Notes under the pieces: model-generated
Databases searched by the model: none
What the model saw: the letters and a program-made list of their open reading frames with translations, nothing else
What the model was told of the DNA's origin: nothing
Translations under genes and position numbers: made by a program
Part shown: positions 7,716-42,349 of the stretch, piece by piece
Position numbering within the stretch: position 1 is the stretch's first letter
Layout: each line of letters opens with the position of its first letter
Assembly (NCBI GenBank): GCA_029261965.1
Contig: JAJDAH010000015.1
Location: forward strand, 1-43,658
From: Polyangiaceae bacterium
GTDB taxonomy: Bacteria > Myxococcota_A > Polyangia > Polyangiales > Polyangiaceae
Direction of reading: 5' to 3'
Length of the DNA stretch: 43,658 nt

Positions 7716-7724
7716 CTGCTCGCG

Positions 7725-8525: not shown

Positions 8526-8532
8526 GGGACCC

Positions 8533-15510: not shown

Positions 15511-15534
15511 GATACTGCCGCCCTCCCGGCTCGT

Positions 15535-16137: not shown

Positions 16138-16180
16138 GCGTCCCCTGGGGTAGCTCGATCGATGCTCGAAGTCATGCGGC

Positions 16181-16810: not shown

Positions 16811-16947
16811 GGCGGCGGTTGGCGCACTCTTCGGGTGCGCTCCGGACGATAATGAAGTGCGAGCCAGGAATCGCACCGAGATTTCGCCGCCGTGGGTGCG
16901 AGGCTGCCTCTCTTGCGGACGAGGGCGGCGTTTTTGGGCCCAGCGTG

Positions 16948-16953
16948 TAGAAT
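16948..16953 (+). promoter_or_regulatory. Candidate -10 box (TAGAAT) of the hem-lpxK operon
   Basis: TAGAAT matches the -10 consensus at four to five positions and ends 7 nt before GTG 16961. There is no Shine-Dalgarno in between, so transcription may start at the start codon. The -35 region is not clear. Confidence 0.45.
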
Positions 16954-16960
16954 TCGCCCG

Positions 16961-17392
16961 GTGTCTCCGAACCGCGTTTTTTTCCCCAGCGGGGCCCTGG
17001 ACGAGTGGGTGCACGCCGACAGAATCGATCTTTCGGCTACGGAGTTCTCCATCAGAGCCGAGGGGAGACGCTACCGGATCATCGAAGCCGCGCGGGTGCT
17101 GGCCGAGGTCACCGGGGGCGAAGACGTCTACGACATCGTGGGAAAGGTAAAGACAGTCAACTTCCTCCACGAGCTCGGCGCCGAGCTCCTGGGCAGCTCG
17201 ATGATCATCGGAGACCTCGCGTTCGACGTCGTGCCGGGATTCATCGGGTCGCCCGTCGGCTCCTTCAGCGGGCACCTCGAGGACCCTGGTAGGAGCGCCG
17301 TGCTAGCTCGCGGCGAAGAGCTCCAGCTTCGAGACAAACCTCAAAGCGACGAGGAGTTGCTCGCGCAGCTGCTCATGCGAACTCTCGAGTAG
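16961..17392 (+). CDS. Unknown protein heading the hem-lpxK operon
   Basis: GTG 16961 gives a 144-aa protein, MSPNRVFFPSGALDEWVHAD and onward. It looks soluble, with two parts: a short beta-rich N-terminal part (RIDLSATEFSIRAEGRRYRI), then a helix and a Gly-rich beta part (LGAELLGSSMIIGDLAFDVV, IGSPVGSFSGHL). I do not recognise a named family. It ends 6 nt before the CcsA/HemX-like gene and is probably co-transcribed with hemA, hemC and lpxK, so a role in tetrapyrrole synthesis or its control is a reasonable guess. Confidence 0.72.
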   Translation: MSPNRVFFPSGALDEWVHADRIDLSATEFSIRAEGRRYRIIEAARVLAEVTGGEDVYDIVGKVKTVNFLHELGAELLGSSMIIGDLAFDVVPGFIGSPVGSFSGHLEDPGRSAVLARGEELQLRDKPQSDEELLAQLLMRTLE

Positions 17393-17398
17393 CGTGGG

Positions 17399-18214
17399 AT
17401 GAGCGCCATCGCCACCATCGCGTTCACCCTCGGCGTGGTCGCGTACTCCGCGTCGTCGACACTGTTTTTCGTGGATCTGGCCCGGAGAGAGGGTGCCCCT
17501 CAAGCGGCGAAATGGGCGCCGTGGGTGCTCGCTGCCGGTGCTGGGCTTCACGCGGCGCACGTCATCACCGCCAGCGCGACGTTGAACCGTTGGCCGTTCG
17601 ACTCGCTCCATTTCGCGCTGAGTCTTTCGGCGTTGATTGCAGTGAGCGTCTACCTGGCGCTCCGACAACGAGCGCGCATTCACGCGATTGGCGCGTTCGT
17701 GTCGCCATTGGCGCTCACCTTTCTGGTCGGCGCGCAGTTCGTCTCGGTTTCCGCACCGCCGACGACCATCCCGAGCACACTGTTGACGCTGCACGTCGCA
17801 GCGAACCTCTTGGGCATCGGATTTTTCATGCTCGCTGGGGGCGTGAGCGTTTTTTATCTGGTGCAAGAGCGCCGACTCAAACAGAAGCGCGTCATCGGTA
17901 CGGGCAAGCTCCCGCCGCTCGACTCGCTCGATACGACCGAGCACCGGCTGCTTCTGGCGGGCTTCCCACTGCTCACCCTGGGGATCGCCACCGGCGCGAT
18001 TTGGGCCCGACAGCTCGAAGCCGGCGGCGGAGTGGAAGTCGCCCGTGCGCTTTTGGCCTACGCGACCTGGCTCTTGGTGGCGGCAGTGCTCACCTTGCGC
18101 GCCGTGGCCGGCTGGCGCGGGAGGCGAGCCGCCTACGGGACGATCGCGGGCGTGGTCTGCGTGATGCTCGTGATCCTGGTTTATGTGGTCCGGCCTCACG
18201 GCGGTGCGCTGTGA
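17399..18214 (+). CDS. CcsA/HemX-like cytochrome c assembly-family membrane protein
   Basis: The 271-aa protein has about eight predicted membrane segments. GFPLLTLGIATGAIWARQ and the end RAVAGWRGRRAAYGTIAGV match the CcsA/CcmC family. The WWD-type haem-handling motif normally found between these two segments is missing; that stretch reads LEAGGGVEVARALLAYATW. This is the HemX-like form known next to hemA in some bacteria, where HemX affects glutamyl-tRNA reductase levels. The stop overlaps the hemA GTG by four bases (GTGA), so translation is probably coupled. Regulation of or assembly with HemA is more likely than haem ligation to cytochromes. Confidence 0.8.
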   Translation: MSAIATIAFTLGVVAYSASSTLFFVDLARREGAPQAAKWAPWVLAAGAGLHAAHVITASATLNRWPFDSLHFALSLSALIAVSVYLALRQRARIHAIGAFVSPLALTFLVGAQFVSVSAPPTTIPSTLLTLHVAANLLGIGFFMLAGGVSVFYLVQERRLKQKRVIGTGKLPPLDSLDTTEHRLLLAGFPLLTLGIATGAIWARQLEAGGGVEVARALLAYATWLLVAAVLTLRAVAGWRGRRAAYGTIAGVVCVMLVILVYVVRPHGGAL

Positions 18215-30176: not shown

Positions 30177-30605
30177 ATGGCGGTGCCGATCGAAGCGCGG
30201 GCGTATGGACCTGACAGCACACCGGAAGAAATCGAGGCGCTCCGGGCGCGGGTCATCTACGACCCGGCGGGTTTCGTCGTCTACGACGAGATCCCGGTGT
30301 TCACGCCGTTTTCGCTCGGTGTGATGTTCGAAAAGGTCGCCGAGATCGAACGGGAACACGGCCTGAAAAACTACGCGATGTTCGTGGACTTGAGCGACAC
30401 TCACCCGCCGGACGCTGCGGCCCGGGACCGCGTGAGGGAGCTGTTGGAAGAGCGTTCGGAAGTCGCACGACTCGCGGTCTTCAGCGGCATGAACATGTTT
30501 CTGAATGTGGCCGTGAAGTTCGTCGCGTCGCGCTTCCTCAAGAACAAAAAGCTCGACATTTTCAAGTCGAGGGACCAGGCGCTGTTGGAGCTTCGTCGTG
30601 GGTGA
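30177..30605 (+). CDS. SpoIIAA-like (STAS-fold) protein 1
   Basis: The 142-aa protein has the layout of the short SpoIIAA-like/STAS-related family: a first strand (AGFVVYDEIPVF), a central strand (YAMFVDLSDTHPPDAAARD), a helix, a third strand (VARLAVFSGMNMFLNVAVKF) and a last helix with SRDQALLELR. Two other proteins here (39411-39845, 41840-42349) share this order and a hydrophobic helix after the third strand. The family is poorly defined functionally; some members bind lipids or act in partner switching. It overlaps the following RsbR-like gene by 8 nt, so both are probably translated together. Confidence 0.65.
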   Translation: MAVPIEARAYGPDSTPEEIEALRARVIYDPAGFVVYDEIPVFTPFSLGVMFEKVAEIEREHGLKNYAMFVDLSDTHPPDAAARDRVRELLEERSEVARLAVFSGMNMFLNVAVKFVASRFLKNKKLDIFKSRDQALLELRRG

Positions 30606-31278
30606 TCGCGAGCTGGATTCCGAGCAGATCGTCGCGCATCTGACCGAAATCATGGCAGGAGAGTGCGCGATCGACATCGACCGGCTGCAGACCGAAGGGT
30701 GGTCGACCGAATCGCTGGAAATCCTGACCGGCTTGCGGTTCTTGTTCGACGACCTGGCGTATCGAGACGGGCAGCGCGCGCAGGCGGAGGACGAAATCCG
30801 CCAATCCGCGGCGATGCTGGCTGACCAGAACACCCAGCTCGAGGCGAGTCAGAATGAAATGGCGGAGCTGGTCGAGCAGTTGTCGACGGTGGTCATCAAG
30901 ATCTCGCACCGCGTCATCATGATGCCCGTCATCGGAGGCATAGACGTTCGCCGCGCGTCGAGGATGACCGAGCGCCTGCTCGAAGGGATCGTGCGAGAGA
31001 AAGCCCGCTACGTGATTCTCGACATCACCGGCGTTCCTCACATCGACACCCACACCGCGGACCACTTCATGAAAATGGCGGAAACCGTCGAGATGCTCGG
31101 GGCCAGCTGCCTGGTTGCCGGCGTGCAACCCGCGGTGTCGAGCACGTTGGCCTCCCTCGAGACGGATCTCGACCGCATTCGGACGTGCGTGGACTGCGCC
31201 GAGGCCCTGGCTCTCTGCCAGCGGGAAATCGCGGTTGCCCAGGCGGCCCGTCAATCGGCCCGCGTCGCGAGAAAGTGA
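30598..31278 (+). CDS. RsbR-like STAS-domain stressosome protein 1
   Basis: The 226-aa protein has a helical N-terminal part (residues 1-55), a coiled coil (58-105) and a C-terminal STAS domain (105-205). Both threonines phosphorylated by RsbT in Bacillus RsbR are conserved: Thr144 in ILDITGVPHID and Thr183 in AVSSTLASL. The N-terminal domain has no globin, PAS or LOV motifs that I can recognise, so its signal is unknown. GTG 30598 lies within the end of the SpoIIAA-like gene, and the stop overlaps the next GTG (GTGA). A role as signal-sensing scaffold in a stressosome-type complex is inferred. Confidence 0.85.
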   Translation: MGDRELDSEQIVAHLTEIMAGECAIDIDRLQTEGWSTESLEILTGLRFLFDDLAYRDGQRAQAEDEIRQSAAMLADQNTQLEASQNEMAELVEQLSTVVIKISHRVIMMPVIGGIDVRRASRMTERLLEGIVREKARYVILDITGVPHIDTHTADHFMKMAETVEMLGASCLVAGVQPAVSSTLASLETDLDRIRTCVDCAEALALCQREIAVAQAARQSARVARK

Positions 31279-31856
31279 ACGCTGGGGTGGGGGAAGCTCA
31301 ATCGCACGGGGCGGTGCGTGGATACATCGTCAATTCGTTCGTCGAGTATCTCGTCGATCGTGTGCCGGACGGTCGTCAACGCTTGGAAGCGCGGCCGGAG
31401 CTGTGGAATGCTCTTCCGCTCGACGGCCCGAAGCACTGTCCGGCCGAGCTCTTCGCTTTGGCGCTCGATGCGGTGGCCAGTAGCGAGCCCGACCCGGAGG
31501 AGCGCTTTCGATTGTTGGTCCGCTGTGGAGAGTTCGCGGCGCAACAATCGCTCAACACATTCTTCCGACTGCTGATGAAGGTCATGACGGCCGGCCTGTT
31601 CGTTCGAAAGTTTCCGGACATGTGGCGGCGCGACTTCCTCATCGGTGAGGGTCACGCACGCACTCTCGAAAAGCAGCGGCTCGAGGTGACCTTGGAGGGA
31701 GTCGGCCAGCTGGAGATGCTCGTGCCGATCGGTCTTGGATGGATGAATCTCGCGTTCGCCGGGATGGGCTATGACAACGCGCGGATCCGGGTGCTCGAAC
31801 CCGCGGACGGAGCACTGTCAGGTCACCGAATTCGTTACGAAGTTGCCTGGGACTGA
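31275..31856 (+). CDS. DUF2378/TIGR02265-like protein (copy 2)
   Basis: GTG 31275 overlaps the RsbR-like stop and gives a 193-aa protein, exactly the length of the paralogue at 40100. The shared core is SLNTFFRLLMKVMTAGLFVR here and TNTFLRLLMRMMTPRIFANK there, followed by a Trp (DMWRRD, TIWSKD), LGWMNLAFAGMGYDN (here) versus LGWMRFGFTAMGCKN (there), and a C-terminal W-D. This fits the Myxococcus paralogous family TIGR02265/DUF2378. Co-translation with an RsbR-like STAS protein suggests a part in partner switching, not previously assigned as far as I know. Confidence 0.7.
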   Translation: MNAGVGEAQSHGAVRGYIVNSFVEYLVDRVPDGRQRLEARPELWNALPLDGPKHCPAELFALALDAVASSEPDPEERFRLLVRCGEFAAQQSLNTFFRLLMKVMTAGLFVRKFPDMWRRDFLIGEGHARTLEKQRLEVTLEGVGQLEMLVPIGLGWMNLAFAGMGYDNARIRVLEPADGALSGHRIRYEVAWD

Positions 31857-31934
31857 CGCACGGCAGCTGTCGAATAGGAGTCAATTCCGATCCGCAAAAG
31901 ATCCGGGGGGTTCTTGTCTCAAATCAGTCAGAAA

Positions 31935-31954
31935 ACTGCTTGATATGAAGCAGT
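31935..31954. promoter_or_regulatory. Palindrome, candidate enhancer-binding-protein site
   Basis: ACTGCTT (31935-31941) and AAGCAGT (31948-31954) form a perfect 7-bp inverted repeat with a 6-nt spacer, about 150 bp upstream of the -24 element of the sigma-54-type promoter. That is the usual distance for activator binding sites of sigma-54 promoters. It could also act as an RNA hairpin after the DUF2378-like gene. Confidence 0.4.
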
Positions 31955-32091
31955 CGGCGGATTCGGAAAATCCTGAGTGAATCCATTGGGTTTTGAGAAA
32001 ACTACAATTCCAGCACCCGAGAGGTGTCCATCCTCAGACAATTCGGCCCACTTCGGTAACGGCCGATCGCTTGAAATCTTTAACTTTTTGT

Positions 32092-32108
32092 TTGGCATGG
32101 ACTTCGCA
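32092..32108 (+). promoter_or_regulatory. Candidate sigma-54 (-24/-12) promoter
   Basis: TTGGCATGGACTTCGCA matches the consensus YTGGCACGRNNNTTGCW at all but two fixed positions. The essential GG (32094-32095) and GC (32106-32107) are present at the right spacing. Transcription would start near 32119, leaving a leader of about 28 nt that contains AAAGGTG before ATG 32147. Confidence 0.55.
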
Positions 32109-32146
32109 CTGCCTTGGACACGGTTTCTTCTCGAAAGGTGTCCAAG

Positions 32147-34198
32147 ATGTCTACTCGTCGCCGCTTCGTTCCCGCCGCTCTCGCAGGATTGCTCGCCGCC
32201 GCCATCGCTCCGACGGCGACCGCGCAGACCTTCACCGACATCGTTCCCGGCGGTGCGTCTGGCATCAACTACCAGCGGGTCGAGTCGACGGGCCTCCAGG
32301 CCATCATGAGCGGCATCGAAGCCCAAGGCGTCATCACCTTCGACGACGTGCCGGCGTTCCCGATGAAGCACAAGGGTGCTCCCGGCGTCGCCCTCTTGGA
32401 TTACGACGGTGACGGCGACTTGGACATCTACGTCACCAACGGCCCGGGCGCGGCAAACAGCCTCTATTCGAACCAGCTCGAGGAAACGGGAATCGTCAGT
32501 TTCGTCGACGTCGCGTTGGCCGCGGGAGTGGACGCCACGGCCCAGGACAGCACGGGGACATGCTTCGGCGATACGGACAACGACGGCGACCCCGACCTGA
32601 TGGTGCTCGGTCAAGAGCAGTCGCACCGGTTCTTCGAGAACAACGGCGACGGCACCTTCACCGACGTCACGGCGGCGAGCGACATCGGTGGTGGAAGCCT
32701 CGCCTCGACGAGCTGTTCGATGGGCGACGTCGACAACGACGGTCTGCTCGACATCGTCGTCAGCAATACCTTCCCCTGGCAGAACTTCATCCCGTGTTTC
32801 GTGGAGCCTTTCACGTTCGACCACGTGAACAATCTCTACGCGAACACCGGCGACAACACGTTCGCCGACGTGACGGGACCCTCGGGCATCACCAACGGCG
32901 GCCCGCCGAACGTCTCTTGGGCGACGGCGATGGTCGACTACGACCAAGACGGGGACATGGACGTCATGTTCGCCGACGACCAGTGCGCGATCCCGCCGGC
33001 AGAGTACGGCGGCATCGATCGAGGCTTCGTCCGCATCCACCAGAACGATGGTGCGGGTAACTTCACGGATGTCACGTTCCAGGCAGGGACCGCCCTCCAC
33101 GGCGGGTGGATGGGCTTGTCCTTCGCGGACTTCGACCACGATGGCACGGTGGACTTCCACGGCTCGAACTTCGGCGATTACCTGTTCGACGTCATGCCGA
33201 TGCCGAACCAGCCCGGCGACAACGAGAGCCGGTGGTTCTTCAACGACGGCAGTGGAGGATTCGTCGATTCGGAGGGGCCGGGCTTTCCCACCACGCCGTT
33301 CGGGTGGGGCACGTCGACGGCGGACTACGACAACGACGGCGACTTCGACATCTTCATGCACGGCGGTCTTCAGGTCGGACCGTTCCTCGAAGCGACGAAC
33401 CCCGGTGTCGTGTTGAACAACGACGGCGCTGGCAACTTCACGTACGACGCCAACGCGCTCGCCAACAGCGGCACGAACCACAGCCGCCGAGAGGTTCACG
33501 GCTTGGCCATGGGCGACCTCAATAACGACGGGTTCCCGGACTCGGTCTCCGTTGCGGCAAGGTTTTCTCCGGAGCCCATCCCGCTGGTGCCGCTCGCGCC
33601 GCTCGGTGGACCTTTCGACGCGACCGCGTTCTTCACCCCAGTGTGGATCCCGATCTTCGTCGACCCGATGCTCCCCCCGGAAATGTTCGTCTTCGCCGGC
33701 TTCCCGTTCCAGCAGGGCGGCCTCTCGGTGGAGATGAACGACGCCACGAACGGCAACCACTGGATCAAGATCAACACCGTGGGCACCGTCGGCATCACCA
33801 CCGGCGGCGCGGTGAACCGTGATGGCATCGGCGCCATTCTTTCGGTCACCCCCCGGAACGGCACCAAGAGCACCAAGCCGGTTCTCGGTGGCTCGAGCTA
33901 CGCCTCGCAGGACGCGCTGGAGACTGGCTTTGGTTTGGGCAGCGCGCACAAGGGCACCATCGACGTCCTGTGGCCCGGCGGAGTCCGAAACAGGCTCTAC
34001 AATGTGCGGAAGGACTCGACCGTCACGCTCCCGGAAATTCCCTGCAGCATCGATGCGGGAGGCAACCTCGGCCAGCACATCAAGTGCCTGCACAAGTCAC
34101 TGAAGGAGCTGCACGCCGCGGGAGTCATCAGCAGGCGAGAGAAGATCAAGCTGTTCGTGAGCAACATCCGCGGCTTCATCGACGAGCGCCACAACTAG
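32147..34198 (+). CDS. Exported FG-GAP/VCBS repeat protein with ASPIC/UnbV domain
   Basis: The 683-aa protein starts at ATG 32147 (AAAGGTG 7-8 nt upstream) with a signal peptide ending PTATAQT. The body has at least seven calcium-binding loops DxDxDGxxD, including DYDGDGDLDIYV, DTDNDGDPDLMV, DVDNDGLLDIVV, DYDQDGDMDVMF and DYDNDGDFDIFM, which implies an integrin-like beta-propeller of FG-GAP repeats. The C-terminal part (around residues 560-640) is an ASPIC/UnbV-like domain with NRDGIGAILSV and GSAHKGTIDVLWPGG. A short helical end follows. It is secreted or on the surface, and stabilised by calcium; the ligand is unknown. A terminator follows at 34225. Confidence 0.9.
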   Translation: MSTRRRFVPAALAGLLAAAIAPTATAQTFTDIVPGGASGINYQRVESTGLQAIMSGIEAQGVITFDDVPAFPMKHKGAPGVALLDYDGDGDLDIYVTNGPGAANSLYSNQLEETGIVSFVDVALAAGVDATAQDSTGTCFGDTDNDGDPDLMVLGQEQSHRFFENNGDGTFTDVTAASDIGGGSLASTSCSMGDVDNDGLLDIVVSNTFPWQNFIPCFVEPFTFDHVNNLYANTGDNTFADVTGPSGITNGGPPNVSWATAMVDYDQDGDMDVMFADDQCAIPPAEYGGIDRGFVRIHQNDGAGNFTDVTFQAGTALHGGWMGLSFADFDHDGTVDFHGSNFGDYLFDVMPMPNQPGDNESRWFFNDGSGGFVDSEGPGFPTTPFGWGTSTADYDNDGDFDIFMHGGLQVGPFLEATNPGVVLNNDGAGNFTYDANALANSGTNHSRREVHGLAMGDLNNDGFPDSVSVAARFSPEPIPLVPLAPLGGPFDATAFFTPVWIPIFVDPMLPPEMFVFAGFPFQQGGLSVEMNDATNGNHWIKINTVGTVGITTGGAVNRDGIGAILSVTPRNGTKSTKPVLGGSSYASQDALETGFGLGSAHKGTIDVLWPGGVRNRLYNVRKDSTVTLPEIPCSIDAGGNLGQHIKCLHKSLKELHAAGVISRREKIKLFVSNIRGFIDERHN

Positions 34199-34224
34199 TC
34201 ATTGCCAGGCCATTACGGTGGTCC

Positions 34225-34256
34225 AACGGCGCCCTTCAGGGCGCCGTTCGGTTTTT
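34225..34256 (+). terminator. Rho-independent terminator after the FG-GAP gene
   Basis: A perfect 10-bp stem, AACGGCGCCC (34225-34234) with GGGCGCCGTT (34239-34248), has a TTCA loop and is followed by CGGTTTTTG. It separates the gene from the convergent stressosome operon. Confidence 0.9.
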
Positions 34257-34322
34257 GTGGTGGGTCCGGTCCGACTCACGCAGAACCGCGCGAGCGGGGG
34301 AGCCAGGCGCCACGGCGTCGAC

Positions 34323-34976
34323 CTACCTTCTACGCTGCTCGCGCTGCTTGCGCACACAAGCTTTGAGCGCGTCGCGCAAGTTCCGGTGACTGTTGACGTC
34401 CTCCATCGTCGTCCCCAGATGAACCAGCGTTTGCGCAATGCTCGGGTTAATCCCGGACAGCACGCATTCGGCGCCGAGCAGACTCACGGCTTTGGCCATT
34501 CGGATGAAATGGTCGGCAGTCCGGGTATCCATCGCCTCGATGCCCGTGATGTCGATGATCACGAAGCGAGACTTGTGCTCGACGATGGCGTTGAGCAGCG
34601 CGTCGGTCATCTCGGCGCTCCGGCCGCTGTCGAGGGCGCCGACGACGGGCAGGCACACGATGTTGTCCCAGACCTGCATGATCGGCGTCGAAAGCTCGCG
34701 GATCGCCTCTCGCTGCTCTTCGATGGTGGAGAGCTTTTCTTCGAGCTGCTGCTGGTATTCCTGGCTGCGCGCGTGCGCTTCCTCGAGCACGTGGAGCATC
34801 TCGTTCAGGCCCGACGCCAGGGCTCCGAACGGATGATCGTCCGGAAGCTCAGTGTCGATCCGGACGGTGTAGTCGCCTGAGGCGACGTCCGACAGTGCCA
34901 TCAGTACGTCGGCCAGATTGCCGTAGAACTCGATCTCCGCCTCGCTCACTTTCGGCGATGTTTCTCCGGACGCCAT
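34323..34976 (-). CDS. RsbR-like STAS-domain stressosome protein 2
   Basis: The 217-aa protein has an N-terminal HAMP-like segment (around residues 15-65, GDYTVRIDTELPDDHPFGAL), a coiled coil (65-100) and a C-terminal STAS domain. Thr144 (VIIDITGIEAMD) and Thr183 (IAQTLVHLG) occupy the RsbT phosphorylation positions and have the same numbers as in the RsbR-like protein at 30598. The HAMP-like region without a membrane anchor may relay a conformational signal. ATG 34976 shares one base with the RsbS-like stop (TGATG), so translation is coupled. It is the last gene of the RsbT-X-S-R operon. Confidence 0.88.
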   Translation of the reverse strand: MASGETSPKVSEAEIEFYGNLADVLMALSDVASGDYTVRIDTELPDDHPFGALASGLNEMLHVLEEAHARSQEYQQQLEEKLSTIEEQREAIRELSTPIMQVWDNIVCLPVVGALDSGRSAEMTDALLNAIVEHKSRFVIIDITGIEAMDTRTADHFIRMAKAVSLLGAECVLSGINPSIAQTLVHLGTTMEDVNSHRNLRDALKACVRKQREQRRR

Positions 34977-35410
34977 CAGTTCGCCACCTCTCCAGTTTCG
35001 AGATCGTCGACCGTCGCGTCGAGATCGAGCTCGTCGTCGGGTCGCACGACGCGGAAGCCGAGCCAGTCGAGGGCCTCCTCGAGGTCCAGGGCCATGCGCA
35101 CGCCGCGCATCTCGACACCCATGGTTTGCAGTGTCATCGCGATCGCGGGGCTCATGCCACAAATGACCGTTCTGGTGCCCATCAGCTGAGCGGACGAGGC
35201 CAGATTCGACAGGGTTGCGCAGAGGTGACTGTCCACCATCCACAGACCAGTGATGTCGATGACGAGTCCGCGGGCGTCGCTGGTGCGCAGCCTCTCGAGA
35301 ACTTCCTCGCTGAGCCGGTCGGCTCGCTCGTCGGTCACATCCCCTTGCAGTGGAACCAAGAGTTGGTCCCAGAGCTTGATGATGGGGATGCGTTCGTACT
35401 GCTCTTCCAT
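34976..35410 (-). CDS. RsbS-like STAS antagonist protein
   Basis: The 144-aa protein is a single STAS domain with a C-terminal acidic tail (DDELDLDATVDDLETGE). Ser61 in WMVDSHLCATL aligns with the serine that RsbT phosphorylates in Bacillus RsbS, and PIIKLWDQLLVPLQGDV is the typical RsbS opening. Unlike Bacillus RsbS it also has the DITG threonine seen in RsbR. It lies 15 nt after the RsbX-like gene and shares a base with the RsbR-like gene. With RsbR it should form the stressosome core that holds the RsbT-like kinase. Confidence 0.88.
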   Translation of the reverse strand: MEEQYERIPIIKLWDQLLVPLQGDVTDERADRLSEEVLERLRTSDARGLVIDITGLWMVDSHLCATLSNLASSAQLMGTRTVICGMSPAIAMTLQTMGVEMRGVRMALDLEEALDWLGFRVVRPDDELDLDATVDDLETGEVAN

Positions 35411-35425
35411 GATTCCCCTTACTTC

Positions 35426-35992
35426 TCAGACCGCGAGATCGGCCACCAGGACGGTGGCGTCGTCGCGCGGGCTTCGAAACTCGTCCATCAGCGTGCGGCA
35501 GGCGTCCGCAGGTGAAAGCGCCCGAATGATATCCAGTTCCGACGCGAGGCCTAGTCCGTCCGAATACATGACGATTCGGGTAGAGACATCGAGCTCGCAC
35601 GTGAACAAGCGGAATTTTCGGACCTTGGCTCCCAGTATCCCCGGTGACAACAGCGCTGGAACGTTCGCGCCCAGGGATTTGACCTCGACATTGCCGACCC
35701 CGCAGCCTTCGAGGGTCGAGCCCTCGATTCGGCAGACCGTCGCAGCCGCGCCTCGTGTGCCCCGGAGGGCTTGGTGCACGTCTTCGAGCAGGCCCACGAC
35801 GGGAGAGCGTACCGGGACGCTATTGAGTACCTCGACGGCTGCATCCGCCGCGATGGCGGCTTGGCGGCCGTGCCCGAGGGCGTCGATGACGGCTATCAAC
35901 GCCGAGGCCCCGTCAATCCGGACGATGGCCGCGTCGCCATTGTGGTTTTCGCCTTCGTGCGGCACCGACAGTGCCTCGGCCACGAAAGTCAC
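35426..35992 (-). CDS. RsbX/SpoIIE-like PP2C phosphatase
   Basis: The 188-aa protein is a short PP2C-type (SpoIIE) phosphatase. Metal-binding positions include Asp20 (NHNGDAAIV), Asp37 in VIDALGHGRQAA (the DxxGHG motif) and the C-terminal SPRDDATVLVADL. The size and lack of sensor domains match RsbX, the feedback phosphatase that resets RsbR and RsbS. GTG 35992 overlaps the stop of the RsbT-like gene by four bases (GTGA). It probably dephosphorylates the STAS proteins encoded next to it. Confidence 0.87.
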   Translation of the reverse strand: MTFVAEALSVPHEGENHNGDAAIVRIDGASALIAVIDALGHGRQAAIAADAAVEVLNSVPVRSPVVGLLEDVHQALRGTRGAAATVCRIEGSTLEGCGVGNVEVKSLGANVPALLSPGILGAKVRKFRLFTCELDVSTRIVMYSDGLGLASELDIIRALSPADACRTLMDEFRSPRDDATVLVADLAV

Positions 35993-36630
35993 AAGACGAT
36001 CTCCACGCTGACGGTCGTGCCGTGGCGTCCGGTTTGGATGTCGAACTTGTCGGCAAGCCGCTTCGAGCCGACGATGCCGAGGCCCAGGCCAGTCTTGCTC
36101 CGGTACTTTCCGCTCAGGATCCGGGCGAGGTTGGGGATGCCTGGCCCGTCGTCGACGGCGACGATTCGGACCCGCGCCCGCCCGCCGGGAATGGGCGTCA
36201 CCTCCATGTGCCCCTGTTCGGCGTAGCTGACGATGTTTCTCGCCAGCTCACTCACCACCGTGGCGACCTTCTGGACGGAAAACGCATTCGCTCGCAGCTG
36301 CTCGCAGATTTGGCGTCCGGCGGCGCGGGCTTTGACGATGTCGCGCTCACCGTTGACCTGCACCTTGACGGCGGCCGGTGCCTGACCGGAGCTCGCGAGC
36401 CGGGTGAGCTCCTCCTCGAGCTGAGCCAGAGCGGCGGGATCGACGAAGAGCCGAGCCGCGCGTTGGATGTTACCGACTACCTGCGGGGCGGTCACGTCGT
36501 CCAGTTGGTCCCGCCTGAGATCGGCACGAGCGAGGGCTCGACTCAAGACGCCCTTGGCGTTGAGGGGAGACAAGTACCTCGACAAGACGTCGAGGATTTG
36601 CTCGTGCACGTCCTTGATTCCTTTGACCAT
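35989..36630 (-). CDS. RsbT-like serine kinase with an extra N-terminal domain
   Basis: The 213-aa protein has a C-terminal GHKL/HATPase domain of the anti-sigma/RsbT type: N box SELARNIVSYA (Glu128, Asn132), DDGPGIPN (160-167) and GLGLGIVGSKRLAD (181-194). In Bacillus, RsbT phosphorylates RsbS and RsbR, is released from the stressosome and then activates the downstream phosphatase. Here about 80 residues precede the kinase (VHEQILDVLSRYLSPLNAKG), a helical domain absent from the usual 130-aa RsbT and similar to an N-terminal domain seen in other proteins of this type that I cannot name. ATG 36630 shares one base with the FadL-type porin stop (TGATG). Confidence 0.87.
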   Translation of the reverse strand: MVKGIKDVHEQILDVLSRYLSPLNAKGVLSRALARADLRRDQLDDVTAPQVVGNIQRAARLFVDPAALAQLEEELTRLASSGQAPAAVKVQVNGERDIVKARAAGRQICEQLRANAFSVQKVATVVSELARNIVSYAEQGHMEVTPIPGGRARVRIVAVDDGPGIPNLARILSGKYRSKTGLGLGIVGSKRLADKFDIQTGRHGTTVSVEIVL

Positions 36631-38276
36631 CAGAACCTGAAAGCTGCGCCAACTGAAACGATGTCCCAGCGGGCGGTGTATTTGCCAGCGTTGATGACGG
36701 TGTCGGGGTCGCCGGTAGGCTCCACGGGGGTCAGCCGAGCCTCTTCTTCGGTGGCGACGATGGTCTTCTGGAAGAGGTGGGCGTAGCCCAGGGACAAATC
36801 GAAACTGCCAGCTCGGACGGTAGCGCCCGCGTGCACTCCCACCCTCTGCGCCGGGATGAAGTCGTTCTGAACGAAGGCGTCGGTGACGCCGTTGCTTTCG
36901 AAGGAAACTCCGGTGCGCACGGCCAGCACGTCCTGGATGACGTTGTAGTCACCGCCCACCCGCACGCCGAGCTGGTCGCGCCATTCGTGCGGAATCGAGA
37001 GATCCACGCTCGCGTCGACCGTGTTTGTCGTGGTTTCCGGCGGTACACCCGGCGCCGACGGCGGGGCCACGAAGGTGGTAGTCAGTGCCGCGTCGTCTCG
37101 CGGCCGCAGCCGCAGCGCGTCGACGCGGGAGTTGAGCTCGTAGACGACGTCGAGCTCGATGTCCCATATCTCCTCGGACAGCGGGTCACGGGAGCGGCCG
37201 TTGGCCTCCCGGCGCCGAGGTGCCCCCGAACGTTTGGCGCCGTATCGGATCCCCAGACTGATTTCCCATGGCATGGGAAACACGACTTCAGCGTTCTCAA
37301 ATCGGTTTTGGGTTGGAATCGTGCTGCCAACCTCCCCCGTGCCGAACTCGCCGAGCAAGAGGTCTACGTCGGCACTGGCCTCGATATCGTCGGACCAGCG
37401 GAAGGCCACGCCGATGTCGAGCTCCGGAGTGACGGCGGCGTGCACCGATGTGATGACTGCGGGCACAAATTTGTCCTTGAGGGCGATCGCGGTCCGGCCG
37501 TCGGTCATCGGCGTTTCGCTTCCGCTGGCTCGCGAATAGCTGAGCAGATCGAGCGACGCGAAGCCGGCTTGAAAGGCGGCCCCGACCCTCAGCCATGGCA
37601 ATACGCGCACTCCAGCGCCAATCGTCGGAAAGATGACGAATCCGTCCGACGCCAGGAGCATGTACCGAAGCGGGTTCGGCCGGTCCTCGCCGTTGACGCC
37701 GCGTACGATGCCGCTCTTTTTTCCCCAACGAAGGGACCCGGCCGTCACCGGCGCCAGGACCCCGGCGGCTATCGCGAACTCCGGCGTGATTTGTGTCGCG
37801 AAAATCAGGGCTGGGCCTGGTCCCGGGGGGCCTTCGTTGCAGACTTTCGGGAACGGCTCCCTCGCGTAACCCCCTTCACCCGGCAGCTCGTCAGCACTTC
37901 CGAACCGGCTCATGTCGCCGGTGGACGAAATGTTGTCGGTGTAGGTCCCGCTGCGCTGCACACACGCGTTGTAGAGCGCGAGATTGACGTTCAAGAGCAC
38001 TTGCGCCCCGTCGATGTCCGCCAGTGCCGCCGGGTTGTAGCGAAGGGCCATCGCGTCATCGGCCCGCGCCGTGAACGCGCCGGCTCGCCCGAGCGCTCTC
38101 GTTCCCGCGGAGGGGTATTCGAGCCCGCCAGCGTGCGCCGGCGCCGCGAGCAGGCTCGCGACTGCGGTCGCGGTCAGGCACGCGGTTGCGGCTCGGACTG
38201 CGGTTGCGGCTCGGGCTAGGGCCAGGGTCGTGGTCAGCCTCGAGCCGCGCCCCGGGTTGCGTTGAAGGGCGCACAT
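36630..38276 (-). CDS. FadL/OmpP1-family outer-membrane porin
   Basis: The 548-aa protein has a signal peptide ending APAHAGG and the FadL-type N-terminus: GGLEYPSAGTRALGRAGAFT, then ADDAMALRYNPAAL. Amphipathic beta strands follow to a C-terminal Phe (VSVGAAFRF), as needed for insertion by the BAM complex. FadL proteins admit hydrophobic molecules such as fatty acids or aromatics. ATG 38276 has GAGG about 8 nt upstream. The signal-peptide DNA (38161-38222) contains imperfect repeats of a GCGGTTGCGGCTCGG unit. The stop is fused to the RsbT-like start, placing a hydrophobic-molecule channel at the head of a stress-signalling operon. Confidence 0.9.
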   Translation of the reverse strand: MCALQRNPGRGSRLTTTLALARAATAVRAATACLTATAVASLLAAPAHAGGLEYPSAGTRALGRAGAFTARADDAMALRYNPAALADIDGAQVLLNVNLALYNACVQRSGTYTDNISSTGDMSRFGSADELPGEGGYAREPFPKVCNEGPPGPGPALIFATQITPEFAIAAGVLAPVTAGSLRWGKKSGIVRGVNGEDRPNPLRYMLLASDGFVIFPTIGAGVRVLPWLRVGAAFQAGFASLDLLSYSRASGSETPMTDGRTAIALKDKFVPAVITSVHAAVTPELDIGVAFRWSDDIEASADVDLLLGEFGTGEVGSTIPTQNRFENAEVVFPMPWEISLGIRYGAKRSGAPRRREANGRSRDPLSEEIWDIELDVVYELNSRVDALRLRPRDDAALTTTFVAPPSAPGVPPETTTNTVDASVDLSIPHEWRDQLGVRVGGDYNVIQDVLAVRTGVSFESNGVTDAFVQNDFIPAQRVGVHAGATVRAGSFDLSLGYAHLFQKTIVATEEEARLTPVEPTGDPDTVINAGKYTARWDIVSVGAAFRF

Positions 38277-38359
38277 TGGCCAGACCTCACATATTACTCC
38301 ACCGGTCCGCCAGCGGTGGGGTCCTTTTTCGAGGCGAAGGAGTTTTTGTTGTTTCTCGT

Positions 38360-38388
38360 TTGATGCCCGTGGCCGAGGCGGGTACCTT
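38360..38388 (+). promoter_or_regulatory. Promoter giving a likely leaderless transcript
   Basis: TTGATG (38360-38365), a 17-bp spacer and TACCTT (38383-38388) form a good sigma-70-type promoter. Transcription about 7 nt downstream would begin at GTG 38394 or ATG 38397. It is the clearest such case in the window. Confidence 0.65.
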
Positions 38389-38393
38389 GAGCG

Positions 38394-39395
38394 GTGATGC
38401 ACACCGAGAACATTGGCATTTGCAGTTGGGGAGCTCGGCTCATCGCGGTGGCCTTCGTCGCGGGCGCCATCGGCTGCTCGGGCGGCTCCTCCGATGACAA
38501 TGGCTCGGGCGGCACCGGCGGTGGCACGACCGGAACCGGGGGCTCGAGCGGGTCGGGAATGACGAAGCTCACCGAGCTGCCGTCTCAGAACACCGATTGT
38601 CCGGACACGAGCCCGCCGCCCACCGAGCAGTACGGGGCGTGCTGCATGAGGGCGCTCACCTCGTGCGAGGCGCCCGCGTTTCGCATATCGGCGATGAGCT
38701 TCACCAAGCCTGCGACGATGGCCGATCCGTTCATTGCCGGGATCATCGCCGAGTCGTTCGACGATGATCGGATGAACTGGGTGGTCGCGCTCGAAGGCGC
38801 GGAAGACGACGGGCCGCTCACGGTGACTACCGGTCACGCTGACCGCAACTCGGACGGCTCGTTCCAGTTCACGAGCGGTGCGGCGTCCGCGCCCGGCGAC
38901 CCCACGCGATGGGACCCGAGAACGGTTCCGGGTACGATTACCGGTGAGCAGTGGAGTAGCGAAGCCACCGATGAAACGGTGGCGGTCCCTGTTCTCAATC
39001 AGCAACGCGACGGGCACATGATCGAGATCCCGTTCCGGAGGCTCCGCTTCGAGACCGCGCAGCTGAGCGTCGGGCGCCAGTGCATCGGAGAGCGCCGCAT
39101 CACCTCGTTCACGACCGATGCTGGGTCGGTGCGAGCCTTTCTCGATGTCGACGAAACCATCGGGGCTCTGGTCATGATTACTCCAGCGCTACAGTTCACG
39201 CTGTGCTCGCTTCTCGCCGGAACCAATCCCATGGACTGCGCCGACGTTCCTCGATCGATGTGGCAGAAGCCGCCTGACTCCCTGTGCGACGGCACTGACT
39301 GCACGGAAGGTGGCTGCGATCCGGTTACGGAGTGCAACGCGTGGGCGCTCGAAGGCGGCTTCGGGGCGCAAGCGGTCGAGCTCGTTACCCCATAG
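38394..39395 (+). CDS. Lipoprotein with Gly/Thr-rich linker
   Basis: The start is GTG 38394 or ATG 38397 (333 or 332 aa). The signal ends with lipobox GAIGCSGG and is followed by a Gly/Ser/Thr linker. The mature domain (about 60-333) is rich in beta strands and has paired cysteines (YGACCMRALTSCE, CDGTDCTEGGCDPVTECN). No family is recognised. It is divergent from the FadL-porin operon (117 bp between starts), so shared regulation is possible. It ends 15 nt before a convergent gene. Confidence 0.7.
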   Translation: MMHTENIGICSWGARLIAVAFVAGAIGCSGGSSDDNGSGGTGGGTTGTGGSSGSGMTKLTELPSQNTDCPDTSPPPTEQYGACCMRALTSCEAPAFRISAMSFTKPATMADPFIAGIIAESFDDDRMNWVVALEGAEDDGPLTVTTGHADRNSDGSFQFTSGAASAPGDPTRWDPRTVPGTITGEQWSSEATDETVAVPVLNQQRDGHMIEIPFRRLRFETAQLSVGRQCIGERRITSFTTDAGSVRAFLDVDETIGALVMITPALQFTLCSLLAGTNPMDCADVPRSMWQKPPDSLCDGTDCTEGGCDPVTECNAWALEGGFGAQAVELVTP

Positions 39396-39410
39396 CTACC
39401 AACTCAGTCG

Positions 39411-39845
39411 TCACGGCGCTGGCGGAATCGATTGTTGGGCGCCGGGCAAGCTCTGTGCGAGCTCTTGCACCGCTCGGTAGGCGGCGTTGCGGTCTTCCTC
39501 GGCGACTCTTGCGTACGCCAGAGCCTCGTGCAGGTGCGATGGCGGGAACGCTTTGACCTTCGCGCCGAACCAGCTGACCGCGGTGACCGCGCCGCGAACC
39601 ACGGCCGCGCTCGTCAACACGGACGCCGAGGCGCCAGACTTCTTCATCAGGTCGATGGCGTCCGATCGCTGGCCGGCATCCAGGCTGCCGCCACCCGTGA
39701 CGATGAGGAATCCACGGAACTCCCCCATACGAGCGTGACAGTCGGCGATGAAGGCGCTCCATTCATCTGAGGAAGGGTCCTCGTCCGTATGAACGAGCAC
39801 GAGCAGGCGACCGACAAATCGGTGAGCCATGGTTCGGTTTTGCAT
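39411..39845 (-). CDS. SpoIIAA-like (STAS-fold) protein 2
   Basis: The 144-aa protein has the same strand/helix order as the products at 30177 and 41840: VGRLLVLVHTDEDPSSDEW, then FRGFLIVTGGGSLDAGQRSD, then ASVLTSAAVVRGAVTAVSWF, and a final helix (HLHEALAYARVAEED). The start is ATG 39845, or ATG 39830 five residues on. It follows the stop of a frameshifted small gene by one base (TGACATG), so the two were probably translated together. It is near the divergent DUF2378-like gene at 40100, repeating the SpoIIAA-like/DUF2378 pairing at 30177-31856. Confidence 0.6.
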   Translation of the reverse strand: MQNRTMAHRFVGRLLVLVHTDEDPSSDEWSAFIADCHARMGEFRGFLIVTGGGSLDAGQRSDAIDLMKKSGASASVLTSAAVVRGAVTAVSWFGAKVKAFPPSHLHEALAYARVAEEDRNAAYRAVQELAQSLPGAQQSIPPAP

Positions 39846-39846
39846 G

Positions 39847-40049
39847 TCAGACCCGATATCCGAGCTTCAGAAGGATCGTCGCCGCCCGCGACATCGCTTT
39901 GGGCGGAGGGACGTTGAACCCGAGGGCGTCGACATTCGGTTCATCGTAGACAGGAGACAACAAATCGCGGTGCTCGTATCGCGCGGTTCGTAAATGAGTT
40001 TGGTGACGACTTTTTTCGCCATGCGAAGGGGGTCAGCGAGGAGATTCAT
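39847..40049 (-). pseudogene. Small gene with an apparent one-base frameshift
   Basis: ATG 40049 opens MNLLADPLRMAKKVVTKLIY, then the frame becomes nonsense. One base back, another frame reads YEHRDLLSPVYDEPNVDALG and ends NVPPPKAMSRAATILLKLGY, RV and a TGA at 39849-39847, with clear protein-like composition. Joined, they give about 66 residues. A single missing base between about 40020 and 39965 would explain it; A6 in GGCGAAAAAAGTC (minus strand) is a homopolymer nearby. Sequencing error, pseudogene or -1 frameshifting cannot be told apart here. The stop lies one base before the SpoIIAA-like gene. Confidence 0.5.
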
Positions 40050-40063
40050 GGGGGCAGACGACC

Positions 40064-40092
40064 TTGACCCACTCCGACATCCAACGTAGCTA
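40064..40092 (+). promoter_or_regulatory. Candidate promoter of DUF2378-like copy 3
   Basis: TTGACC (40064-40069, five of six with the -35 consensus), a 17-bp spacer and a weak TAGCTA (40087-40092) precede GTG 40100 by 7 nt. This makes the TTG at 40064 more likely a -35 than a start codon. Confidence 0.45.
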
Positions 40093-40099
40093 TTGTAGT

Positions 40100-40681
40100 G
40101 TGGCAGACGAAGCGACGGGGCTGAAGGGATACAACATCTTATCGGCCGTCGAGTATTTGAAACAGACCTACTCACCAGAGCAATACGAGCGTGCGCTCGC
40201 TACCCTGTCCGAGGATGTGCGTGACGCACTACCCGGCGTCAAGCAGTTCGAGTTCTACCCTCGAAGGTATTTCGGCGAGATCGTGGCCGCGACGGCGGGG
40301 CTCCACGAGGAGGAGGACGACCGGCACGCCGCCCTCGCATCACTCGGTGAAAATATCGCTCGGGGCGCGACTAATACGTTCCTCCGGTTGCTCATGCGAA
40401 TGATGACGCCGCGGATCTTCGCGAACAAGGCGCAAACCATCTGGTCCAAGGACCATCGCGGCGGGATCATCGAAGCTGATACGTCCAAGTTGGACCAGAA
40501 CGAGATGGTCGTCACCATCGGTGAGCTCGAGGGGTTCAAGCACATGAACGCGATTTCCCTTGGCTGGATGCGCTTTGGGTTCACCGCCATGGGGTGCAAG
40601 AACGTGCGTGCCGAGCTCGTCGAAGGCGGTCTCGAGCAAATCTCCCCGCCGAAGATCGCCATCAGAGTCAACTGGGACTGA
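40100..40681 (+). CDS. DUF2378/TIGR02265-like protein (copy 3)
   Basis: GTG 40100 gives a 193-aa protein starting MADEATGLKGYNILSAVEYL, the same length as copy 2. The start of the domain (GLKGYNILSAVEYLKQTYSP), TNTFLRLLMRMMTPRIF, the conserved W (QTIWSKDHRGG), SLGWMRFGFTAMGCKN and the final VNWD all align with copy 2 by eye. The family is known as a Myxococcus paralogous group (TIGR02265/DUF2378) of undetermined function. A TTG at 40064 would add twelve residues, but that codon looks like part of the promoter. The deiodinase-like gene follows after 55 nt. Confidence 0.72.
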   Translation: MADEATGLKGYNILSAVEYLKQTYSPEQYERALATLSEDVRDALPGVKQFEFYPRRYFGEIVAATAGLHEEEDDRHAALASLGENIARGATNTFLRLLMRMMTPRIFANKAQTIWSKDHRGGIIEADTSKLDQNEMVVTIGELEGFKHMNAISLGWMRFGFTAMGCKNVRAELVEGGLEQISPPKIAIRVNWD

Positions 40682-40736
40682 TACACTCTTGGTCGGAGTG
40701 TACCGCGCACCACCAACCGGTTCGTGTGCAGGGCTC

Positions 40737-41762
40737 ATGGACGTCCTGTTAGCTCATCCCTACGGGGTGGCGATGGCAGCCGGCTTCGGTTCGGCGGTGG
40801 TGCTCGAGTTGCTGTCGCGCTCGTGGAAGGACCCCGGATTCGTCAGTACGGTGTTTTTCGGAGTCGCGCTCGTTTTGCAGGCCGTGGTTGCGGCCTTCAT
40901 TCTGGCCCTCACGTTCTCGGGAAGAGTACTCGCGGTGTGGCCGGGCCTTTGGTTCGGTCAATGGGTGCTGCTCGGTCTTCTCACGTTTTGCTCGGGGTAC
41001 GGCGTTCGCAGTTTTTTCGCGTACGTACTTCGGAGTTCGCGCTCGCGCTCCTACAACTATCCCCACTTCATGTACGAGTACTACGTACCCGAGCCGTGCC
41101 CGGCGGAGACTCGCGCCGGAACGCGGATCGTCGACGTGTCGGTTCTCGATCTCGACGGCGAAGAGCGTTCGCTCTCCGCGCTCTATTCCCAGGGGCCCAT
41201 CGTCATCGAATTCGGCAGTATCTCGTGCCCCATTTTCACGTCTCGGCTGCAGGCCATGGACGTCCTGGCGGAAGAGTACGCCGATCATGCCCGGTTTTTT
41301 GTCATGTACACTCGCGAGGCTCACCCTGGTGCTCGCTTCCCTCCGATCGAGCATGTCGAACAGAAAATCGACCACGCCCGAGCGCTGACGAAGCGCGGCG
41401 CCCGAAGAAGTGTTCTCGTCGACGACGTCGACGGCGCGCTCCACCGCCGCTACGGGGGCTTCCCCAATTCGATTTTGATCGTCGGTACCGATGGGGTCAT
41501 CACACTTCGCATGGAGTGGAACGAGCCCCATCTCGTTCGGCGACACCTCGATCGTTTGCTGGAAAACGGGGGTGTCGGCGCGGGTCTCGACGCCGTGCAA
41601 ATCGACGGAAACATCGTCGAGCCGCCGCCGTATGTTGCGATGCGCGACCTCGCGAGAGCCGGCTGGTCGTCACTTGCCGACTTTCTCGTCGAGGCGCCCC
41701 GCCTGGTTCTTCCGCACGTATTGAGCAAGTTCGACCGCGGCGACGAGCCGCCGACGCCCTAA
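40737..41762 (+). CDS. Membrane-anchored iodothyronine-deiodinase-like protein
   Basis: The 341-aa protein has three predicted membrane segments (about residues 8-27, 37-60, 69-98), then a thioredoxin-fold domain. The stretch IEFGSISCPIFTSRLQAMDV with FFVMYTREAHPGAR matches the deiodinase family (FGSxxCPxF ... EAHP). Cys164 stands where vertebrate enzymes have selenocysteine and is encoded by TGC, so it is not a selenoprotein. The second half continues DVDGALHRRYGGFPNSILIV. Bacterial members are redox proteins of unknown substrate. It follows the DUF2378-like gene by 55 nt and precedes a SpoIIAA-like gene by 77 nt, all in one direction. Confidence 0.8.
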   Translation: MDVLLAHPYGVAMAAGFGSAVVLELLSRSWKDPGFVSTVFFGVALVLQAVVAAFILALTFSGRVLAVWPGLWFGQWVLLGLLTFCSGYGVRSFFAYVLRSSRSRSYNYPHFMYEYYVPEPCPAETRAGTRIVDVSVLDLDGEERSLSALYSQGPIVIEFGSISCPIFTSRLQAMDVLAEEYADHARFFVMYTREAHPGARFPPIEHVEQKIDHARALTKRGARRSVLVDDVDGALHRRYGGFPNSILIVGTDGVITLRMEWNEPHLVRRHLDRLLENGGVGAGLDAVQIDGNIVEPPPYVAMRDLARAGWSSLADFLVEAPRLVLPHVLSKFDRGDEPPTP

Positions 41763-41839
41763 ACCGCCGCCGGCTGGAGGCCGCTACGCAGTCAGCGGTT
41801 GCAACACCGCGCGACCCTTGATTGGATGCCAAGTCCGCC

Positions 41840-42349
41840 ATGTGCGCCGAAAGACTCAGTTCCTCGGATTCCTCCGAAGCGGAGTTGATCGACCAAGGCG
41901 CGCATCACCGGACAGTGGTGTGGGGCGCTGTCATCGTGTCAGCCTACAACGGTCAGGTCTCGGTCGATCTTGCGACTGCACTCGAGCGCGCAGTTGCTCA
42001 GCGGGCCCCGGAGAATGGACCCATTGGTCTCGTCATCCACGTCATCGAGGGCGCGGAACGCCCCGAGGGCGCGGTGCGAGACGCCTTCACGAGGATGATG
42101 TCCGCGGTCGACGACCGTGTTGCTGCTTGGGCCATCGTGTTCGAAGGCACAGGTTTTTGGGCGGCCGCCATGAGGGCCATTCAATCCGGCATTTTGCTGA
42201 CCGCGCGAATAAAGGCACCTGCGAAGGTTTGTCCCGATCCAGCCGGCGCGGCGACCTGGTTGCATCAGACTATGAGCAAGCCGCTCCCGGGCGGCGCCGG
42301 AGCGCTCCGTAAAATCATCGAAGCCAACCGCTTCGAGCTGGCGGGTTGA
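41840..42349 (+). CDS. SpoIIAA-like (STAS-fold) protein 3
   Basis: ATG 41840 gives 169 aa; a TTG at 41822 could add six. After a Ser-rich start of about 25 residues come strands and helices in the SpoIIAA-like order: HRTVVWGAVIVSAYNGQVSV, IGLVIHVIEGAERPEGAVRD, AAWAIVFEGTGFWAAAMRAI, and a last helix (PDPAGAATWLHQTM). The hydrophobic helix after the third strand is shared with the other two SpoIIAA-like proteins here. It is the last gene of a plus-strand series DUF2378-like, deiodinase-like, SpoIIAA-like, and converges on a lipoprotein gene. Confidence 0.62.
   Translation: MCAERLSSSDSSEAELIDQGAHHRTVVWGAVIVSAYNGQVSVDLATALERAVAQRAPENGPIGLVIHVIEGAERPEGAVRDAFTRMMSAVDDRVAAWAIVFEGTGFWAAAMRAIQSGILLTARIKAPAKVCPDPAGAATWLHQTMSKPLPGGAGALRKIIEANRFELAG

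Follow-up and report, generated by a model that had tools for sequence, protein, structure and literature searches.

The stretch of DNA analysed here (the window) is 43,658 nucleotides long and comprises the whole of one contig, C47, of a Polyangiaceae draft genome (9.6 Mb in 480 contigs, 96.4% complete). It encodes a compact stressosome core, RsbT-RsbX-RsbS-RsbR2, together with a second RsbR (RsbR1) and two DUF2378-like proteins, D2378a and D2378b. The core is ordinary; what is new is its partner. The proteins of the D2378a/D2378b family, hereafter D2378L, are predicted to have an H-NOX fold deprived of its haem ligand, and on balance they probably serve as sensory subunits of RsbR in a minimal stressosome, usually as a separate chain. 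The proposal is built on computed gene identities, the predicted fold, the loss of the haem ligand, a conserved gene pairing and one gene fusion. No description of a haem-less H-NOX-fold stressosome partner was found in the open-licence literature, most subscription papers lying outside the search. For most stressosomes it is not known which signal they sense; the candidate sensor here is a separate soluble protein of ~190 aa, so that the input becomes testable by adding or omitting one protein. The analysis also assigns to relatives of DUF2378 a probable fold and a role that can be tested, and the two together suggest that H-NOX domains have been reused as haem-free sensors. Below, L, G and C numbers are our labels for loci, genomes and contigs, and T, X, S, D and R in gene orders stand for RsbT, RsbX, RsbS, D2378L and RsbR.

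Predicted fold of the D2378L proteins and loss of the haem ligand

The structure of D2378b was modelled with AlphaFold2 on an alignment of ten sequences from the window and related loci (pLDDT 90.7, pTM 0.85). Both Foldseek (E 3.5e-5) and VIA-align ranked H-NOX domains first for this model, the latter superimposing it on the Nostoc H-NOX over residues 8-193 (Z 15.9, 172 residues, 2.9 A). Proteins of the V4R/Bet3 fold were the next best structural matches at Z about 10, the best of them being TRAPPC3 (Bet3; Z 10.2), i.e., H-NOX was much closer. Support for the fold that does not depend on the model came from profile-profile comparison with hhalign, in which 26 D2378L sequences matched 32 myxobacterial H-NOX sequences over the full length (78% in local and 89.5% in global mode), and 21 broader DUF2378-like sequences matched H-NOX at 98-99%. 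The controls, RsbT, RsbX, RsbS and RsbR, gave 0.1-0.2% against H-NOX, and they amount to fewer than five independent ones, as the RsbR and RsbS sets overlap and the HATPase control gave a result identical to that of RsbT because both profiles collect the same proteins. Plain sequence searches were nearly blind to this relationship: PF07700 (HNOB) had no match in the own genome, a profile search of the sequences in the PDB with D2378L found no H-NOX, and an HNOB match was seen in only one of 22 D2378L sequences (E 0.0032). The case for the fold therefore rests on the model and the profile-profile comparison, by which DUF2378 and D2378L are most likely members of the H-NOX/V4R superfamily.

The column of the haem-ligating His, which is His in all 32 H-NOX sequences, is occupied in D2378L by Trp (23 of 26), Phe (two) or Leu (one) and never by His; in the broader DUF2378-like proteins it is Trp in 18 of 21 and His in one. 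Nor do the aligned D2378L columns contain a counterpart of YxSxR (Tyr in 32, Ser in 31 and Arg in 29 of the 32 HNOB sequences), which we take to be the haem-propionate motif of H-NOX. Consequently, in spite of an H-NOX-like fold predicted over the whole length and of the profile similarity, D2378L is not classed as H-NOX. The gene neighbourhoods differ as well, D2378L being paired with RsbR, whereas a long HATPase frame resembling a histidine kinase is present in 9 of 30 H-NOX loci.

Another His, following a Gly-Tyr/Phe motif, is common to 17 of the 26 D2378L sequences. Together with the predicted fold and with the existence of haem-based RsbR sensors (PMC4976288, PMC9237108), it lends something to the idea of D2378L as a gas sensor in which a non-standard residue such as this His ligates haem or a different porphyrin. 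Considering, however, the Trp that replaces the ligating His in most members, the lack of any YxSxR-equivalent pattern and the negative PF07700 search of the own genome, we regard haem-based gas sensing by D2378L as very improbable.

A further V4R/H-NOX-like family was encountered beside RsbS or RsbX in two genomes (L092:7041-7637, L093:4776-5357, L093:7014-7589). Its profile matches that of H-NOX at 88.8-90.1%, and that of D2378L at 8.3% in local and 0% in global mode.

Relation of D2378L to DUF2378

The name 'DUF2378-like', given to the two proteins in the first-pass annotation, is not borne out by the curated cut-offs, since D2378b scores 15.4-15.7 bits against PF09536 (22.2 required) and 12.5 bits against TIGR02265 (25 required), and D2378a has no match in the Pfam and TIGR02265 scans. 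The family link itself is nevertheless real, for D2378L and the broader DUF2378-like set (21 sequences) match each other at 99.9% or more in hhalign. In the tree a branch supported at 96/91 sets off 25 D2378L members; the twenty-sixth (L084:15325-15891) groups with the broader family, and D2378L is best described as a separate branch related to DUF2378. It does not have the C-terminal Cys-containing motif found in part of the broader family. Among ten broader DUF2378-like proteins scanned, one exceeded the DUF2378 cut-off and one equalled it, four matched V4R weakly and none passed the cut-off of TIGR02265. DUF2378 has been described as a family without known function that is exclusive to myxobacteria, and upon exposure to the prey quinolone quorum signal HHQ one DUF2378 gene was raised in each of two myxobacteria (PMC9257966).

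Pairing of D2378L with RsbR in related genomes

The D2378L set was collected with a profile of the three D2378-like proteins of the own genome over 183 genomes of the order. Its matches at E <= 1.1e-13 comprised 30 copies in 17 genomes. A separate D2378L profile, which served for D2378a and for the fused protein described below, was cut on domain boundaries, since the fused protein otherwise drew in RsbR sequences. Among the matches listed, a STAS gene lies within 1 kb of at least 12 of the 30 copies, where random placement expects 0.07 copies; counted by genome and genus, this holds for at least 9 of 17 and 6 of 12, respectively. When the own genome, which had drawn attention for this very pairing, is counted out, a listed STAS gene lies within 1 kb of at least 10 of the other 27 copies, in at least 8 of the other 16 genomes. 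Clustering of all genes within 6 kb of 26 D2378L members, with no family named beforehand, gave as the commonest neighbours besides D2378L itself RsbR/S (at least 10 loci), RsbT/HATPase (at least 8) and RsbX (at least 8), these counts being too low because the RsbR genes in L080, L081, L084 and L086 are not included; a response-regulator/kinase-like group was next (6 loci), ahead of flavin monooxygenases and a further family that has no Pfam name (4 loci each).

In ten places (L001, L075, L079, L080, L081, L084, L086, L091, L092 and L098, the last lying outside the 30-copy set) the D2378L gene stands directly before RsbR on the same strand. The complete order is T-X-S-D-R-W' in L084 and L086, W' being a second small HATPase, and T-X-D-R in L098. 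As L098 belongs to a Kofleriaceae assembly of the order Haliangiales, and the relatives of the window include Labilithrix of the order Polyangiales, the link between D2378L and RsbR is not confined to one order. In one locus the two are fused: a protein of 389 aa (L093:8903-10072) carries D2378L at residues 9-181 and STAS at 278-382, i.e., in the same order as in the gene pairs. Among the RsbRs listed next to D2378L, nine of eleven are 205-265 aa long and have short N-termini; the other two, of 160-164 aa, are probably RsbS, which was told from RsbR by length and position as the two profiles cross-match.

The pairing is a property of the D2378L branch in the loci compared. RsbR lies within ~1.5 kb in 9 of 19 D2378L loci, and RsbR, S, T or X within that distance in none of 23 broader DUF2378-like loci (Fisher 2e-4; 7 of 16 against 0 of 17, 3e-3, with the own genome left out). 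These numbers were obtained from 21 and 24 loci after removal of duplicates (L104 = L051, L109 = L065), L062 (the same place as L105) being counted with the broader group, in which three of the 23 loci (L043-L045) are weak matches at E 0.002 to 0.08 and not confirmed as DUF2378-like; the HATPase at L061, a histidine kinase beside an H-NOX gene, was not counted as stressosome.

This contrast bears on the possibility that the window holds an ordinary rsbRSTX module with DUF2378-like genes nearby by chance or by local clustering. Such a view is in keeping with a core of an already described kind (PMC9237108, PMC2887360), with the occurrence of DUF2378-like genes (E <= 1e-8) across the phylum, in 50 of 377 genomes, and with the neighbouring SAA3, whose relatives form a large paralogous family with no Rsb neighbours in its 30 best loci. 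Yet the pairing is far above chance, it is missing from the broader DUF2378-like loci, and it recurs inside operons of the window's own taxonomic order (L084, L086), in Haliangiales (L098) and in one fusion. Accidental neighbourhood is disfavoured, and we consider it quite improbable.

Several other neighbours of D2378L were noted. Flavin monooxygenase genes lie near it at L001:11443-15506, L078:3546-5297, L088:6342-7955 and L090:9862-13243, and in L001, L079, L080 and L083 it is found near a family of ~240 aa with no Pfam match over the cut-off in the two members scanned; the latter may be haem-oxygenase-like. Perhaps these neighbours are makers of the signal. A tandem array of six D2378L genes occupies L085:292-4402 (G127:C1180), with a HATPase gene at the contig end, and in a genome from a lake metagenome an open frame of 2586 aa overlaps at its end with a D2378L gene (L102:2229-10555), no Rsb gene having been found in the flanks fetched. 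At L094:4829-7310 (G017:C501) D2378L has as neighbours a true H-NOX gene and a HATPase gene that resembles a kinase. H-NOX-type genes directly beside an RsbR-like gene were seen in two genomes, at L036:7006-8261 (G022:C37; HNOB E 1.5e-19) and at L133 (G005:C15), one of the 30 H-NOX loci fetched.

The stressosome core and its phosphorylation sites

The kinase RsbT, the phosphatase RsbX and the STAS proteins RsbS and RsbR2 are encoded by four adjoining genes of a tight minus-strand operon (34323-36630; gaps T/X -4, X/S 15 and S/R2 -1 bp), which is a compact rsbT-X-S-R stressosome core, a kind of module already described. In comparison with the chains of solved stressosomes, RsbS matched RsbS at E 6.2e-22, RsbR2 matched RsbR-type chains at best E 6.4e-33 and RsbR1 matched RsbR at E 1.5e-21. 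These alignments and the Pfam assignments uphold the first-pass description of T-X-S-R2 and RsbR1 as stressosome-like partner switching. The same annotation had spoken of an undescribed signalling system, which is apt for the DUF2378-like proteins and not for the core: the four-gene rsbRSTX module without sigB is reported as widely conserved, with eleven kinds of downstream partners found for the globin-type modules studied (PMC9237108), and a survey of myxobacteria, which arrives at 71 anti-anti-sigma proteins for Sorangium, indicates putative RsbRST clusters in its phylogeny of SpoIIE-like phosphatases (PMC2887360).

Phosphorylation sites, as named in PMC9237128, were located by alignment to the solved stressosome chains with residue positions counted by hand. 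RsbS Ser61 aligns with the phosphorylatable Ser56 of Listeria innocua RsbS, and in both RsbR1 and RsbR2 Thr151 falls on the known site Thr209 and Thr183 on Thr241. The sites previously proposed thus stand for Thr183 and Ser61, while Thr144, also proposed for both RsbRs, is the Thr of a DITG motif and does not correspond to any known phosphosite. At the Thr175 position RsbR2 has Ser117, which is phosphorylatable, and RsbR1 has Val117, so that this site is not kept in both proteins; V. vulnificus likewise has a Ser (Ser199) there (PMC9237108).

The reported absence of sigma-B and RsbU from the window extends to the genome. At 96.4% completeness no protein of the own genome exceeded the SigB/F/G cut-off (best score 135.9 against the required 234.35 bits), and no RsbU_N domain was found at E <= 1, RsbV not having been searched by name; a SigB cascade encoded elsewhere in the genome was accordingly rejected as a candidate. 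A second locus is present on contig C52 (L001), where T, X, S and W' lie at 15528-17561, W' being an extra small HATPase (L001:17154-17561, HATPase_c_2 E 5.2e-11); at a distance of about 7 kb, RsbR (7507-8157) is immediately preceded by a D2378-like gene (8213-8776). The T-X-S-R order recurs in relatives of the own genome, often with W', which is not among the neighbours of the window module. At L029:9601-14285 (G017) T-X-S-R is followed by W' and an FG-GAP/UnbV-like gene on the opposite strand; the window shares this order, but the interval 34198-34323 between RsbR2 and the FG-GAP gene holds no W'. Thirteen further matches to RsbT, the C52 copy among them, align with it over nearly the full length, the N-terminal extension included.

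Proposed mechanism

The fusion and the D-then-R gene order suggest that D2378L is the head domain of RsbR placed on a separate chain. What we infer beyond the gene data concerns the physical contact with RsbR, the direction of signalling, the kind of ligand and the output, and may be put as follows. RsbT, RsbX, RsbS and the two RsbRs would work with D2378a and D2378b, these acting as separately encoded sensory heads of RsbR whose haem-binding residues are lost. The D2378L head would change in response to a signal, which might be a partner protein or a small hydrophobic molecule lodged in the pocket, and by way of the short N-terminus of RsbR (HAMP-like/coiled-coil) the change would reach the STAS core, altering the phosphorylation by RsbT of RsbR Thr151/Thr183 and RsbS Ser61. 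RsbT might then be set free to act on a further target, and RsbX would reset the complex. A small hydrophobic ligand is a fair guess in view of the V4R domains, for which hydrophobic ligands and signalling in cis or in trans have been suggested (PMC2253512).

D2378L might also bind RsbR without being its input, as an assembly factor, an antagonist or an output adaptor capturing RsbT or W'. Its position inside the T-X-S-D-R-W' operons of L084 and L086 and often near W' agrees with such a role, as does the fact that D2378L has no known ligand and has lost that of haem. Sensing, on the other hand, is the usual work of the H-NOX fold. Two other genomes (L036, L133) have an H-NOX gene adjoining one for an RsbR-like protein, and in the fusion D2378L is N-terminal to RsbR, which is the place of the sensor domain in other RsbRs (PMC4976288, PMC9237108). 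We therefore hold a non-input role to be unlikely, while giving it serious weight.

A number of observations weigh against the sensory role or against the pairing from which it is argued. The cut-off E <= 1.1e-13 that defines the 30 copies was picked after the list had been seen. Among the matches listed, 18 of the 30 copies are without STAS within 1 kb, including the six of the tandem array, whose contig is 4.9 kb long, and the copies of L078 and L090, which adjoin flavin monooxygenases and around which no Rsb gene was found. A single genus (g5) contributes four of the nine positive genomes, which are thus not independent, and the only fusion comes from a draft assembly of 240 contigs. In the window itself the order is reversed for D2378a, RsbR1 coming first, and D2378b is 4.7 kb from the nearest STAS gene, in an apparent operon with the deiodinase-like gene and SAA3; RsbR1 has no equivalent of Thr175. 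Finally, RsbRs with short N-termini are equally common away from D2378L, and shortness is thus no pointer to a missing head.

More broadly, and as a tentative picture to which we give rather less than even credence, the stressosome of Polyangia could be one core that reads many signals through exchangeable sensors acting in trans (D2378L, joined in certain genomes by true H-NOX or V4R-like proteins), which dock on a short RsbR. Tandem arrays would then represent a repertoire of plug-in heads, and the proteins of the large DUF2378 family would be ligand sensors derived from H-NOX.

Comparison with known stressosomes

The system most resembles the minimal rsbRSTX modules of Vibrio vulnificus and V. 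brasiliensis, in which RsbR, RsbS, RsbT and RsbX are likewise encoded together with conserved phosphosites, the present module being known from its genes; here, too, the genome has no SigB over the cut-off and no RsbU_N. Sensing in Vibrio stressosomes falls to a haem globin that forms the N-terminal part of RsbR (PMC4976288, PMC9237108). RsbR1 and RsbR2, in contrast, have a short N-terminus only (HAMP-like, under the cut-off, in RsbR2) and lack a haem globin, a separate protein of predicted H-NOX fold being the putative sensor; RsbT is N-terminally extended, and the gene order is T-X-S-R. The SigB-controlling stressosome of Bacillales differs in having SigB and an RsbU with RsbU_N, neither of which was found in this genome.

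Gene layout of the window and other neighbouring genes

The features are listed in Table 1. Besides the minus-strand core, the window has a plus-strand operon of three genes, SAA1-RsbR1-D2378a (30177-31856), overlapping by 8 bp and 4 bp, and a second plus-strand set, apparently also an operon, of D2378b, the deiodinase-like gene and SAA3.

Table 1. Features of the window and the evidence for their assignment.
Feature	Coordinates	Strand	Evidence and remarks
RsbT-like switch kinase	35989-36630	-	Pfam HATPase_c_2 E 4.5e-10; N-terminal extension ~80 aa
RsbX-like SpoIIE/PP2C phosphatase	35426-35992	-	Pfam SpoIIE E 1.3e-7
RsbS-like STAS scaffold, phosphosite Ser61	34976-35410	-	STAS E 7.1e-11
RsbR2, short HAMP-like/coiled-coil N-terminus + STAS	34323-34976	-	STAS E 4.5e-16; HAMP E 0.002, under cut-off
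RsbR1, second RsbR	30598-31278	+	STAS E 1.3e-13
D2378a, predicted haem-less H-NOX fold (DUF2378-like)	31275-31856	+	D2378L profile E 4.2e-54; fold predicted for family
D2378b, predicted haem-less H-NOX fold (DUF2378-like)	40100-40681	+	AlphaFold2 pLDDT 90.7; Trp115 in position of haem-ligating His
SAA1, unassigned family, rsbR1-D2378a operon	30177-30605	+	Pfam, NCBIfam: 0 matches; membership in system uncertain
Deiodinase-like protein	40737-41762	+	T4_deiodinase (PF00837) E 2.5e-12, 47.1 bits, cut-off 27
SAA3	41840-42349	+	SpoIIAA-like (PF11964) 13.9/25 bits, under cut-off
FG-GAP/UnbV protein	32147-34198		Pfam scan; no evident part in stressosome system
FadL-type porin	within 36630-39017		Pfam scan; no evident part in stressosome system

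Pfam bears out RsbT, RsbX, RsbS, the two RsbRs and the deiodinase-like protein of the original gene list, the names SpoIIAA-like and DUF2378-like remaining under their cut-offs. Three proteins had been called SpoIIAA-like, a name that Pfam does not confirm: against the PF11964 cut-off of 25 bits SAA2 scores 16.7 and SAA3 13.9, and SAA1 has no match. The synteny in relatives that had been suggested as a check was found for the D2378L-RsbR pair and not for SAA1, SAA3 or the deiodinase-like gene, whose membership in the system is therefore doubtful. SAA1 has matches in three of 177 genomes, the own one included, and its single-sequence model (pLDDT 51) is too poor for a fold search. In the loci of relatives compared, nothing else matched the deiodinase-like gene at E <= 1e-8. 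SAA3 belongs to a large paralogous family of the order, with matches in 71 of 177 genomes and up to 20 in one; none of its 30 best loci has RsbR, S, T or X within ~1.5 kb, and the only one with a D2378-like gene near is the window itself. Looser ties were seen in two loci, where an SAA3-like gene lies 1.3 kb from D2378L (L083) and 4.5 kb from RsbT (L091).

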